Source: Halostagnicola larsenii XH-48 (lineage in GTDB: Archaea; Halobacteriota; Halobacteria; Halobacteriales; Natrialbaceae). Taken from it: DNA of 64,000 bases. This document shows positions 10,908-15,010 of the stretch, piece by piece. The notes beneath the pieces were generated by a model. The model was given only the letters and a program-made list of their open reading frames with translations. It was not told where the DNA came from and did no database searches. The position numbers were made by a program, and so were the translations under genes. The stretch spans positions 434,001 to 498,000 of the forward strand of contig NZ_CP007055.1 in NCBI RefSeq assembly GCF_000517625.1, in the 5' to 3' direction. The stretch's first letter is position 1; each line of letters begins with the position of its first letter.

Positions 10908-11660
10908 CTAGGATCGTCGTGCGACCAGTGTGATCGTGAGCGCCGCGATGGCCGCGAGCGCGGGTCCGATAGCGAAGCCGGGGACCGAATCTCCGTCCGA
11001 GCCGTCATCTTCTGCGGATTCGTTCTGTGACGCAGATTCCTCCCCGCCGTCGCCGACGGTGAGGGTGCCGGCCGCTCGAGCCGGATCGATGGCGTCGCCG
11101 CCGTCGGCGTCGAGTTGGGCGTCCGAGACGCGCAGGTTCGTCTCGCCGTGATCGACGCCGGTGACGTCGATCTCCGCCAGCGTGACGTCCGTTTCGCCGG
11201 ACGTGACCGCATCCTCGAGGTCGATCGCTTCGACCGTGACCGTTTGCTCGTCGCTACTCACGACGGGATCGGTCGTGAGTCCGAACCGATCCGGATAGCT
11301 GGCGTTTCCGATTGTCGCGACGCCCTCGGTCTCGAGCGCAAGCGTGACCTCGAAGCCCGCCAGTCCATCCGGCGCGTCAGTCAGCGCGATGCGGTGTGTC
11401 GCGGTGGACTGGGGATCGACCGTCTCGTTGGAGACGACGAGCGTCGGGTCGGCTGCCGCGTCCTGGCTCCCGACGGTCGCGCTGGGAGTCGATTCGGCTC
11501 CGGCGACTGCGACCGGTCCGATCGCGGTCGATCCGACCGCGACGAGAATCGCCACCGTGGCGATGACCGTCCGGATCGTCCGCCGTCGGTTCGGCGGTTG
11601 ACCCGGGACCCGCGCGTCGGTGGTCGGCCCGCTCGAGTCGGTTCCACCCATCGGGGTCAC
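10908..11660 (-). CDS. Membrane-anchored cohesin-like surface protein
   Basis: 250 residues, GTG start overlapping the stop of the PhoX gene (GTGA). A hydrophobic segment at residues ~30-55 is a signal peptide or anchor. Residues ~70-198 form an all-beta domain of the cohesin/carbohydrate-binding type (DPTLVVSNETVDPQST..., DAPDGLAGFEVTLALE..., GETDVTLAEIDVTGV). An Asp/Glu/Ser-rich linker follows, then a C-terminal VPGFAIGPALAAIAAL helix ending in ARRS. That tail resembles PGF-CTERM signals processed by archaeosortase A. The domain is clearly paralogous to one in the neighbouring PhoX protein. An alternative start is the ATG three codons in. Confidence 0.78.
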   Translation of the reverse strand: MTPMGGTDSSGPTTDARVPGQPPNRRRTIRTVIATVAILVAVGSTAIGPVAVAGAESTPSATVGSQDAAADPTLVVSNETVDPQSTATHRIALTDAPDGLAGFEVTLALETEGVATIGNASYPDRFGLTTDPVVSSDEQTVTVEAIDLEDAVTSGETDVTLAEIDVTGVDHGETNLRVSDAQLDADGGDAIDPARAAGTLTVGDGGEESASQNESAEDDGSDGDSVPGFAIGPALAAIAALTITLVARRS

Positions 11661-14290
11661 AGTTCGCCGGCGAGCGCGACGATGTCGTTGTAATCGATGC
11701 GGCCGTTCTCGTTGAAGTCGAACGCTTCGTCGTTCAGCCGGACGGAATCGCCTTCGATGTTCTCGAATAAGACGACGACGTCGTCGTAGTCGAGTCGGCC
11801 GTTTCCGTTGACGTCCTCGAACGTCCCGTCGCCGTTGGGGTCAGTTGGCGGACGGCCGCCGGGTCCGCCGCCGAGCGACGGCGGCCCGGTGACGACGACG
11901 CCGGGTCGGGGCTGGGGATCGATGGGCATCCCCGAATCGTCGTCCATCGTGTGGACCTCGAGCGTGATGTCGGTCGTCCCCGCGCCGACGCCCTCGAGTT
12001 CGATCGACGCCAGCGTGACGTTTCGCTCGCCGGATTCGATCCCGTTTCCGATATCCGCGAACCGGAATTCGATCGTCGAACCGTCGTCGCTGACGGTCGG
12101 ATCGGCGGTGAGTTCGATGCCGTCGGCGTAGTTCGCGCCCGTAATTTCGGCGACGTCCGTGTGTTCGACGGACGCGGTGATGCGCCCGCCCGCGAGTCCG
12201 TCGGGAACCGACGAGAGCGTCAGATCGACCTCGCCCGTCGCCTCCTGACTGACTCCGAGGGAGTCGACGTGGAGCGTTGCCGGCGGCTCGTAGACCCACA
12301 GGGTGTCGTTGGCATACGAGCGGCCGAATCCGCCCTTGTCCTCACAGAGCAGGACGCGGCCGTCGTCCATCACCATCACGTTGTCGACGTTGATCAGCGA
12401 GACGTCCTTCAGCGACTCGGGGTCGCTCGCGTTCGGGCCGACGACGATCGGTTCGAGTCTCGAGACGTCGTATCCGGCCTCGAGTTCGGCGCGGTAGACG
12501 ATGCCGCTGTCGACCTCGTCGAACCGGAGTTCTCCCTTCTCGTCGGTCATGTATCCGCTGAGCGAGGAGATGCCGAAGTAGATGAAGTCGCCGGGTTCGG
12601 CGTCGTCGTGGGAGTCGATCCCTTCGGCCTTGTTGAACTCGATGCTGGCTCCGATCTCCTTGGCGGCGGCGCGGGTCTCGAGGAACGGAACGCGGCGCAG
12701 GTTTTCGTCGACCTCATCGGGACCGCGTTCTTCGTACTGCCGGGCCCACTCGACGATCTCCTCGTCGGTGATATAGTCCCGATTGCCGTTGATGGCGACT
12801 TCCTCGTCGGCCTCGGCGAGGGCGGCCTCGAGGTCGTCCTCCCAGTCGGTCTCGGCGTGGGTCTCGAGGTAGTCGACCTGCGTCACGTCGTCGTAGTCCG
12901 TGATCCAGGACTCGACTTCGGCGTTGCTCGCGCTGCCCAGCTCGAGCCACTCGACCTCGAGGTCCGTCTCGGCGACGGGACCCTCGCCGACTTCGGTCGC
13001 TTTTATGGCGAAGAGCGTGCCGCTGACGTCCGCTCGGCTCTCGTACTCCGGAATCGGCTCGTCGGCGACGAACTTGTAGAGCCCCTTCGCGCCGCCGTCG
13101 GCGGCCAGATAGACCGTCCGCTCGTCGGGCAGGACTTCGGGGCATTCCCACGACGACCGGCCGAAGACGTGGTGTTTGACGGGGATCGGCTCGTCGCTCG
13201 TCGGCTCGGTGATCTCGACGATCTTACCGTAGCGGTAGCGATTCGGGAACACGTCGTCGCCGATGGGCTGGGGCGTGTCCTCGCCGTCTTCGATGTCGAC
13301 CGGTTCGGCGCCGAGATGGTAGGCGATCTTCTCGGTGCCTCTGTTGTTGCTCAGCCCCATCGGGTACCAGCTCTCCTCTTCACCGAAGATTTCCACGAGA
13401 GCGTTCTCGACGCCGAGAATATTCGGGCGGTTCCAGAACTCACTTCCGCCGCGGAGGCCGACCCCGCTGCCTTCCTCGACGATGTCGCTGACCGTCGCCA
13501 GGCCGCCAACCCGCGGGTGGCCGTACTCCTCTTCGGCCGACAGCGGCGTCTCCCACGGACTGAGGTCGCCGTAGCAGTTGATCTTCGTTCCGCCGACCTC
13601 GCGGAACGCCTCGGTGTTCTCGAGTTCCATCGCGTTCTCGAGGTCGGCCTGCCAGTAGCCGTCCTCGTCGCGCGAGAGCGGCGTTCGCGAGATCGCGCCG
13701 GGGCGCGTCTCGTTGTTGGTAAAGAGGTATCCCTCGGTTCCCTCGTCGTTCGTCGAGACGAAGAAGTTCATGTCGGGCTGGTCGCCGACGCCCTCGTAGC
13801 CCTCCTCGACGACGTCGGCGATGTCGGTTCCGTCGGGGGTTTGCGGGTGGCCGAATCGCTCGGTCCCGCCGTTGATCTCGTCTCCCGTCCGAACGAGGAG
13901 ACGATACTGTCCGCCGGCCGTCTGCACCTGGGCTTGTTCTGCGTTCGTCCGCGGCGGTGCTAGCTCCTCGAAGTCGTCGTTGTTCCCGTCGAACGTGAAT
14001 CGGAAGTCGTCGACGACGCCGACGCCGCCCCAGTCGAACGGTTCGGGGTTGTCTTCGCTCGGGTGCTGTAGGCTGTAGAGCAACTCGCCCGTTTCGAAGA
14101 CGAACGGCCCGGTCACCTCGGCACCGCGCGCCGTCGTCGAGAAGCGTTTGAGTTCTCCGTTGACGTACGGCGCCGTCGGCGTGTCGTGTTCGTCCGGTCG
14201 ATCCGCCGCGCCAGCGGTACCGACCACGCCGGCACCGACCGCCGCTGCCATCGACGATGCCATCAGATTACGTCTGGTAAATTCGGGCAT
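11657..14290 (-). CDS. Tat-exported PhoX/DUF839 protein with cohesin-like and dockerin-like modules
   Basis: 877 residues. It begins MPEFTRRNLM followed by a hydrophobic Ala/Gly run, a twin-arginine signal. Residues ~35-660 match the PhoX (DUF839) family, a beta-propeller that in bacterial PhoX is a Ca/Fe-dependent alkaline phosphatase. Residues 672-801 are a cohesin-like beta domain. After a Pro/Gly linker, residues 826-837 and 858-869 are two dockerin-type Ca2+ loops (DVNGNGRLDYDD, DFNENGRIDYND), each followed by a hydrophobic helix. It overlaps the downstream cohesin gene by 4 bases, so the two are probably co-translated. Phosphatase activity is inferred from family only. Confidence 0.85.
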   Translation of the reverse strand: MPEFTRRNLMASSMAAAVGAGVVGTAGAADRPDEHDTPTAPYVNGELKRFSTTARGAEVTGPFVFETGELLYSLQHPSEDNPEPFDWGGVGVVDDFRFTFDGNNDDFEELAPPRTNAEQAQVQTAGGQYRLLVRTGDEINGGTERFGHPQTPDGTDIADVVEEGYEGVGDQPDMNFFVSTNDEGTEGYLFTNNETRPGAISRTPLSRDEDGYWQADLENAMELENTEAFREVGGTKINCYGDLSPWETPLSAEEEYGHPRVGGLATVSDIVEEGSGVGLRGGSEFWNRPNILGVENALVEIFGEEESWYPMGLSNNRGTEKIAYHLGAEPVDIEDGEDTPQPIGDDVFPNRYRYGKIVEITEPTSDEPIPVKHHVFGRSSWECPEVLPDERTVYLAADGGAKGLYKFVADEPIPEYESRADVSGTLFAIKATEVGEGPVAETDLEVEWLELGSASNAEVESWITDYDDVTQVDYLETHAETDWEDDLEAALAEADEEVAINGNRDYITDEEIVEWARQYEERGPDEVDENLRRVPFLETRAAAKEIGASIEFNKAEGIDSHDDAEPGDFIYFGISSLSGYMTDEKGELRFDEVDSGIVYRAELEAGYDVSRLEPIVVGPNASDPESLKDVSLINVDNVMVMDDGRVLLCEDKGGFGRSYANDTLWVYEPPATLHVDSLGVSQEATGEVDLTLSSVPDGLAGGRITASVEHTDVAEITGANYADGIELTADPTVSDDGSTIEFRFADIGNGIESGERNVTLASIELEGVGAGTTDITLEVHTMDDDSGMPIDPQPRPGVVVTGPPSLGGGPGGRPPTDPNGDGTFEDVNGNGRLDYDDVVVLFENIEGDSVRLNDEAFDFNENGRIDYNDIVALAGEL

Positions 14291-14596: not shown

Positions 14597-15010
14597 TTAC
14601 TCGAGGTTCTGTGCCGTCACTTCGCCTCGTATTTCCTCGGCCCGGTCGTGGACCCACGAGCGATACCGGTCGATATCGGTCGGCGTGACACCGTAGAACG
14701 ACGCGACCCAGTTCGTATCGGCCCAGGGAAGCGTCAGGAGGTACGCGGCGAGGGTGTCTTTGCCGGCCTGAATAATCTCCGGCGGCACGCCGCGAGTGCC
14801 GGTGTCAGCCTCGACGAATCCGTTGACGTCGAAGTAGACGTCGGCGTACAATCGAGCGTCCTCGAGGCTGTCGAAGGTGATTCCGACGTGGTCGGGCGCC
14901 TCGAACCGGTAGTCGTCGCCGGCCCCGTCGGTTTCGACGATACGAACTCCCAGTACGTACTCCTCGAGCACCGAGCCGTCGGCGTCGGAAACGGTATCGG
15001 ACGTAGACAT
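14597..15010 (-). CDS. Conserved haloarchaeal hypothetical protein
   Basis: 137 acidic residues (MSTSDTVSDADGS...). An N-terminal alpha/beta part (YVLGVRIVETDG, GITFDSLEDARLYADVYFD) precedes a helical C-terminus with ASFYGVTPTDIDRYRSWVHDRA, which resembles a helix-turn-helix of the sort used to recognise DNA or protein. No family name can be assigned with confidence. It lies alone, divergent from the Orc1 gene. Confidence 0.7.
   Translation of the reverse strand: MSTSDTVSDADGSVLEEYVLGVRIVETDGAGDDYRFEAPDHVGITFDSLEDARLYADVYFDVNGFVEADTGTRGVPPEIIQAGKDTLAAYLLTLPWADTNWVASFYGVTPTDIDRYRSWVHDRAEEIRGEVTAQNLE

Follow-up and report, generated by a model that had tools for sequence, protein, structure and literature searches.

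A dockerin-tailed PhoX protein and its cohesin-bearing neighbour as a probable surface-docking pair of haloarchaea

The window analyzed here is a stretch of 64,000 nucleotides from Halostagnicola larsenii XH-48 (contig NZ_CP007055.1, positions 434,001 to 498,000), and two overlapping genes on its reverse strand are described; all features below lie on this strand (-). The PhoX-family gene (11657-14290) encodes a product of 877 residues composed of a Tat signal, a PhoX domain, a cohesin-like domain, a linker and a dockerin. The gene that follows (10908-11660), called the anchor gene in this work, encodes a protein of 250 residues with an export signal, a cohesin-like domain, an acidic linker, a PGF motif and a transmembrane end. 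The stop codon of the PhoX gene and the start codon of the anchor gene share the four nucleotides GTGA (11657..11660). The anchor reading frame opens with the GTG of this overlap, and an alternative ATG start is located three codons on. Such an overlap suggests translational coupling of the two genes.

The Tat signal peptide occupies residues 1-28 of the PhoX protein (FTRRNLMASS...AGA; 14207..14290). R6 and R7 are invariant among 17 aligned relatives, and no lipobox was seen in the sequence of the signal peptide. The catalytic domain, residues 41-668 (12287..14170), matches PF05787 at E 3e-21, with 76.5 bits against a Pfam cut-off of 24, so that the original prediction of an exported PhoX-family protein is borne out. 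Searched as a single sequence, the PhoX protein gave no PDB match; a profile of the catalytic domain matched Pseudomonas fluorescens PhoX (3zwu) at E 2e-9. The PF05787 domain is common to both proteins, and the residues of the NC, EE, E and D motifs are invariant and aligned with those of 3zwu. C239, E253/E254 and E382 align with C179, E193/E194 and E273, which we take to be the metal ligands of 3zwu. Compared with that enzyme, however, the PhoX protein of the window is very divergent and carries an extra insert in addition to the cohesin-dockerin tail. The invariant D398 aligns with D292, an active-site residue of PhoX (PMC11098088), and the region of R385 falls outside the alignment. By tree path, the nearest PhoX relatives are those of Natrialba and other Natrialbaceae. 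Haloarchaeal PhoX proteins without the tail also exist, for example in Haloferax.

A type I dockerin with two EF-hand-like Ca2+ loops forms the C-terminus of the PhoX protein, residues 824-877 (11660..11821). Loop 1, DVNGNGRLDYDD, corresponds to residues 826-837 and loop 2, DFNENGRIDYND, to residues 858-869, exactly where the original prediction had placed them. Both are duplicated loops of the DxNxNGxxDxxD type with a helix after each one (171-180 and 203-212, numbered as in the AF2 model of the tail), which is the pattern that defines a type I dockerin. Dockerin_1 (PF00404) scored 22.0 bits in the protein scan, slightly below its cut-off of 22.9, and 26.1 bits, above the cut-off, in the whole-genome search; in the latter, no second dockerin was found in the H. 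larsenii genome at E<=1e-3. A PF00404 match at E<1 was obtained for all 47 aligned tails. The mean pairwise identity of the dockerin, 69%, is on a level with that of PhoX itself.

The anchor protein begins with a putative hydrophobic export signal (residues 28-55; 11496..11579), followed by the cohesin domain (residues 73-203; 11052..11444). Its last residues, 227-250 (10911..10982), contain a PGF motif, a transmembrane helix and a basic end, reading VPGFAIG...VARRS, and an ArtA gene lies at another place in the genome (TIGR04125, E 9e-95). These four features together characterize the PGF-CTERM-like membrane tail that had been foreseen for this protein. PF18204 does not call the anchor protein itself and matches 2 of 24 anchor orthologues. 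All 43 named anchor orthologues end in a C-terminal transmembrane-like stretch, and a PGF-like motif is present in only 20 of them.

The internal cohesin domain of the PhoX protein (residues 669-803; 11882..12286) is joined to the dockerin by a Gly/Pro linker. It is paralogous to the cohesin-like domain of the overlapping anchor gene, as originally proposed, with 37% identity over 131 residues (E 1e-18). Among relatives, PF00963 recognizes 5 of 47 tails that include an internal cohesin, the best value being 5.5e-6; for anchor cohesins the count is 6 of 44, with a best value of 5e-4. The term cohesin-like rests on the fold, because the Pfam cohesin model matches neither domain of the window. 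AF2 models were built from alignments of haloarchaeal relatives, with pLDDT values of 87.5 for the anchor and 86.2 for the tail with the internal cohesin. For both models, the leading PDB matches are cohesins (Z 15.9 for the anchor cohesin and 16.3 for the internal cohesin), and the Archaeoglobus fulgidus cohesin 2xdh was matched with Z 15.0 and 15.7, respectively. In these models, both beta domains are beta-sandwiches of the cohesin fold, which agrees with their original description. PDB sequences searched with a profile of the anchor cohesin gave no match. A match of the full-length anchor alignment to an S-layer protein was rejected; it covered only the low-complexity and transmembrane end, and the other matches were due to chance. 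The invariant or near-invariant residues differ between the two families, being E144-A145, L100, P123 and Q182 in the anchor cohesin and R743-F744 in the internal cohesin, and suggest separate partner specificities.

The tail was detected in 131 of the 391 sampled genomes of the class (E<=1e-20). Gene neighbourhoods were compared at 80 named loci, 48 with dockerin-bearing PhoX genes and 32 with testable tail-less PhoX genes. L128 (a cohesin with no dockerin, a contig-end artefact), L152 (too close to the end of its contig) and L144_51 (a fragment) were set aside. An anchor gene is located directly downstream, on the same strand, of 42 of the 48 dockerin-bearing genes, and its cohesin domain begins 92-300 nt past the PhoX stop in these 42 loci; none of the 32 tail-less genes has such a neighbour. 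Among the other six dockerin-bearing genes, one is the first of a tandem sharing an anchor and five have no anchor. Chance is ruled out as an explanation of the pair because the pair is conserved across the class. These locus counts are not independent draws of species, and the figure based on the PhoX tree (91 PhoX domains) is safer: dockerin and anchor change together in approximately 6.5 (mean) of seven independent contrasts, with none opposing (sign test, median p 0.03, range 0.016-0.06). By this sequence comparison, the dockerin and the anchor gene are gained and lost together.

The PhoX proteins of L121 (Haloarcula pellucida) and L173 have kept the internal cohesin and lost the dockerin; neither has an adjacent anchor gene, and their genomes contain only weaker anchor relatives elsewhere. 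The dockerin thus tracks the anchor more than it tracks the internal cohesin. No anchor-type cohesin at all is present in 14 of the 20 genomes with tail-less PhoX. As a control, PF00963 cohesins were found in 15 of 16 genomes lacking the tail and do not track the dockerin. Eight distinct genomes have a tailed enzyme without a neighbouring anchor (seven PhoX, one PhoD), and a whole-genome search of these recovered only the enzymes' own cohesins. In genome G254, a transmembrane-like scrap persists at the expected site of the anchor gene. Losses of the anchor next to a dockerin-bearing PhoX gene belong mostly to one clade. The seven genomes that keep a dockerin-bearing PhoX without the anchor gene count against a docking role, and their dockerin would be either useful alone or decaying.

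Wherever an anchor gene adjoins (44 sequences), the tyrosine at position 10 of loop 1 is conserved without exception; of 8 sequences whose genomes lack such a gene, 7 have lost it. Anchor-less lineages mostly lack this residue, yet loop 2 is kept. On the tree, this association amounts to no more than about two events and falls short of significance; it fits the docking idea and hints that the two faces of the dockerin differ. The correlation of distance matrices between anchor cohesin and dockerin (partial r 0.50) was not above that with the internal cohesin, and this mirror-tree style of comparison did not discriminate between candidate partners.

Other enzymes carry the same tail. The search was performed with a tail-only query built from PhoX tails, and PhoX is over-represented by design; proteins outside PhoX were identified with Pfam and BLAST. 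Close matches (E<1e-50) included nine PhoD alkaline phosphatases, four choice-of-anchor I proteins, two 5'-nucleotidase-type enzymes and one GH5 enzyme. Five more close matches are proteins with the size typical of the staphylococcal-nuclease-domain family, three of the five having been examined. The tails on PhoD and 5'-nucleotidases support a phosphorus-scavenging role of the system. Most genomes with several tailed enzymes have one strong anchor gene, beside PhoX. Where a species has the tail on PhoD, 5'-nucleotidase or choice-of-anchor I proteins as well, these enzymes probably share one type of anchor. Tail-free PhoX proteins have neither a lipobox nor a C-terminal transmembrane segment; they seem to be secreted freely, and with the tail the enzyme would have another location.

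In a genome of the Halomicrobium group (G264, locus L190), four consecutive genes encode a cohesin with a transmembrane segment (Coh-TM), a Tat protein that combines five cohesins with a dockerin (5xCoh-Doc), a GH5-fn3-Coh-Doc enzyme and a GH5-Doc enzyme. This is the arrangement of a small cellulosome made from the same cohesin family, and it is good circumstantial evidence that such cohesins receive dockerins. Clostridial cellulosomes (type I) have the same fold pair, and L190 is arranged like them overall, with an anchor, a scaffoldin of several cohesins and enzymes that bear dockerins. The system of the window, in contrast, has neither scaffoldin nor polysaccharide cargo and consists of one enzyme and a single-cohesin anchor. 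The H. larsenii genome does not encode a cellulosome; its single dockerin (E<=1e-3) belongs to PhoX, and none of the cohesin proteins found has more than one cohesin.

The PhoX protein and its neighbour are likely a non-cellulosomal cohesin-dockerin system for docking phosphohydrolases on the cell surface, in which we infer both the binding and its dependence on Ca2+. This reading is favoured because the genes are almost strictly adjacent, because dockerin and anchor come and go together, and because PhoD and 5'-nucleotidases carry the same tail. PhoX, which has no anchor of its own, would be exported in folded form by the Tat pathway. Its C-terminal dockerin, folded by Ca2+, would plug into the cohesin of the presumably co-transcribed neighbour. 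The anchor would be kept in the membrane by its C-terminal helix or by a lipid link made by ArtA, possibly after ArtA processing. PhoX, presumed to be catalytically active, would thereby be retained at the cell surface and phosphate would be released beside uptake systems. In this way the cell would probably clip PhoX onto its own surface, and some species would do so with several phosphate-scavenging enzymes. The internal cohesin might act as a spacer or supporting module, as a second docking site for chains, or as a self-partner. High salt and low free Ca2+ could change EF-hand docking, and this counts against the proposed mechanism.

The PhoX protein's own cohesin may be the partner of the dockerin, which would speak against docking to the anchor. 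The dockerin would then mainly bind the internal cohesin, in cis or head-to-tail, to give oligomers or fibres, and the anchor would only cap or tether them. Cohesin and dockerin adjoin in one PhoX chain, the anchor-less group of Halalkalicoccus and Halegenticoccus retains both modules, and the invariant residues E144/A145 of the anchor and R743/F744 of the internal cohesin differ as if for separate partners. L121 and L173, however, keep the internal cohesin after loss of the dockerin, with the adjacent anchor gone, and some related enzymes, such as GH5-Doc in L190, have a dockerin without a cohesin. Binding mainly to the internal cohesin is considered unlikely.

The EF-hand pair might also be a mere Ca2+-binding stability module, or one that binds substrate or cell wall, with the linkage of the cohesin gene a relic of cassette transfer. 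Haloarchaeal dockerins have been called substrate-binding parts in the literature (PMC10963439, PMC13260240), and Pfam EF-hand models match the dockerin tail, although weakly. Repeated correlated loss of dockerin and anchor, a dockerin identity as high as that of PhoX, and the scaffoldin layouts of relatives would all be unexpected for such a module, and this explanation appears quite improbable. The least credible receptor is a PF00963-type membrane cohesin encoded elsewhere in the same genome. L006 and L007 both encode a cohesin above the Pfam cut-off with a transmembrane or PGF-like tail, but both are unlinked to the PhoX gene, and cohesins of this type are unlikely receptors because they are present in 15 of the 16 genomes without the tail.

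Docking to the neighbouring anchor may be extended, tentatively, to a "phosphatasome", which we regard as a possible but rather doubtful arrangement. A dockerin of a single type and a single membrane anchor would be common to PhoX, PhoD, 5'-nucleotidase and other phosphohydrolases. Internal cohesins would take the dockerin of the next enzyme to form mixed surface chains; loop 1 would be the contact for the anchor, and loop 2 that for the internal cohesin.

In A. fulgidus, the dockerin of ORF2375 binds the cohesin of ORF2376, and the two ORFs are adjacent (PMC9705933). This pair has been tested for binding, and the original prediction, which described archaeal modules as mostly lacking partners, needs correction on this point. 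The haloarchaeal pair is similar in being non-cellulosomal and archaeal, with the dockerin in one of two consecutive ORFs and the cohesin in the other, and in its cohesin fold, at approximately 14-16% identity in structural alignments. What sets it apart is that a phosphatase carries the dockerin, that the neighbouring protein bears a membrane tail, and that the arrangement recurs throughout the class. ANME archaea have many cohesin and dockerin proteins, the implications of which were called unclear (PMC9012536). Both systems are archaeal and extracellular with diverse cargo, and envelope attachment was suggested for ANME; the ANME cargo, however, is mainly solute-binding and S-layer proteins, and no conserved phosphatase-anchor gene pair was described there. 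A literature search covering journals outside most of the subscription titles found no paper tying haloarchaeal dockerins to phosphatases and no class-wide, co-evolving phosphatase-anchor pair.

The non-cellulosomal cohesins and dockerins of archaea have been known for more than two decades with no clear job. The pair described here would give them a specific, conserved and testable one, the holding of Tat-exported phosphohydrolases on the haloarchaeal surface. Tail and anchor have been lost naturally in some lineages, and Haloferax has a PhoX free of the tail, so that the idea lends itself to a simple genetic test in easily grown organisms; salt-tolerant cohesin-dockerin pairs would serve as useful tools. 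That PhoX, PhoD and 5'-nucleotidases have this tail in common suggests a multi-enzyme complex of a new kind for nutrient scavenging.

The 137-aa gene near the PhoX gene (window 14597-15010, minus strand) recurs in the PhoX neighbourhood in 81 of 83 loci, where it sits upstream or downstream of PhoX, both at loci whose PhoX carries the C-terminal cohesin-dockerin tail and at tail-less ones. The product of the window gene, to which no family was assigned in Pfam or NCBIfam, is a conserved partner of PhoX. At one tailed locus (L192:1039-8445, genome G322), a second PhoX with a cohesin and without a dockerin lies upstream of the tailed PhoX and its anchor gene.

The pairing of a cohesin-dockerin tail with an adjacent cohesin gene is found again on cargo different from PhoX, namely proteins of about 1150 aa (L074, L075, L077 and L078). 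An SNase domain is present in both of those scanned with Pfam, and the L075 protein is a homologue of these two.

Beyond the window, the Halostagnicola larsenii genome encodes two further cohesins of the PF00963 type (L006:1387-2022 and L007:1366-2127), each ending in a PGF/TM-like tail. The L007 gene adjoins an ORF with its own PGF tail, which resembles a 5'-nucleotidase C-terminus as judged by eye.

Multi-cohesin proteins were observed in other genomes. In Haladaptatus sp. DYF46, the gene at L182:436-2142, whose product combines three cohesins with a dockerin, adjoins a second dockerin ORF. The L188/L189 cluster (G043:C1:468000-497000) contains a scaffoldin-like protein with eight PF00963 cohesins alongside several dockerin-bearing subtilases; this is possibly a complex for docking proteases. 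In a Halomicrobium-group genome, a four-gene run (L190:7608-16126, G264) encodes, in order, a cohesin-TM anchor, a scaffoldin-like Tat protein with five cohesins and a dockerin, a GH5-fn3-cohesin-dockerin protein and a GH5-dockerin protein, and looks like a small haloarchaeal cellulosome.
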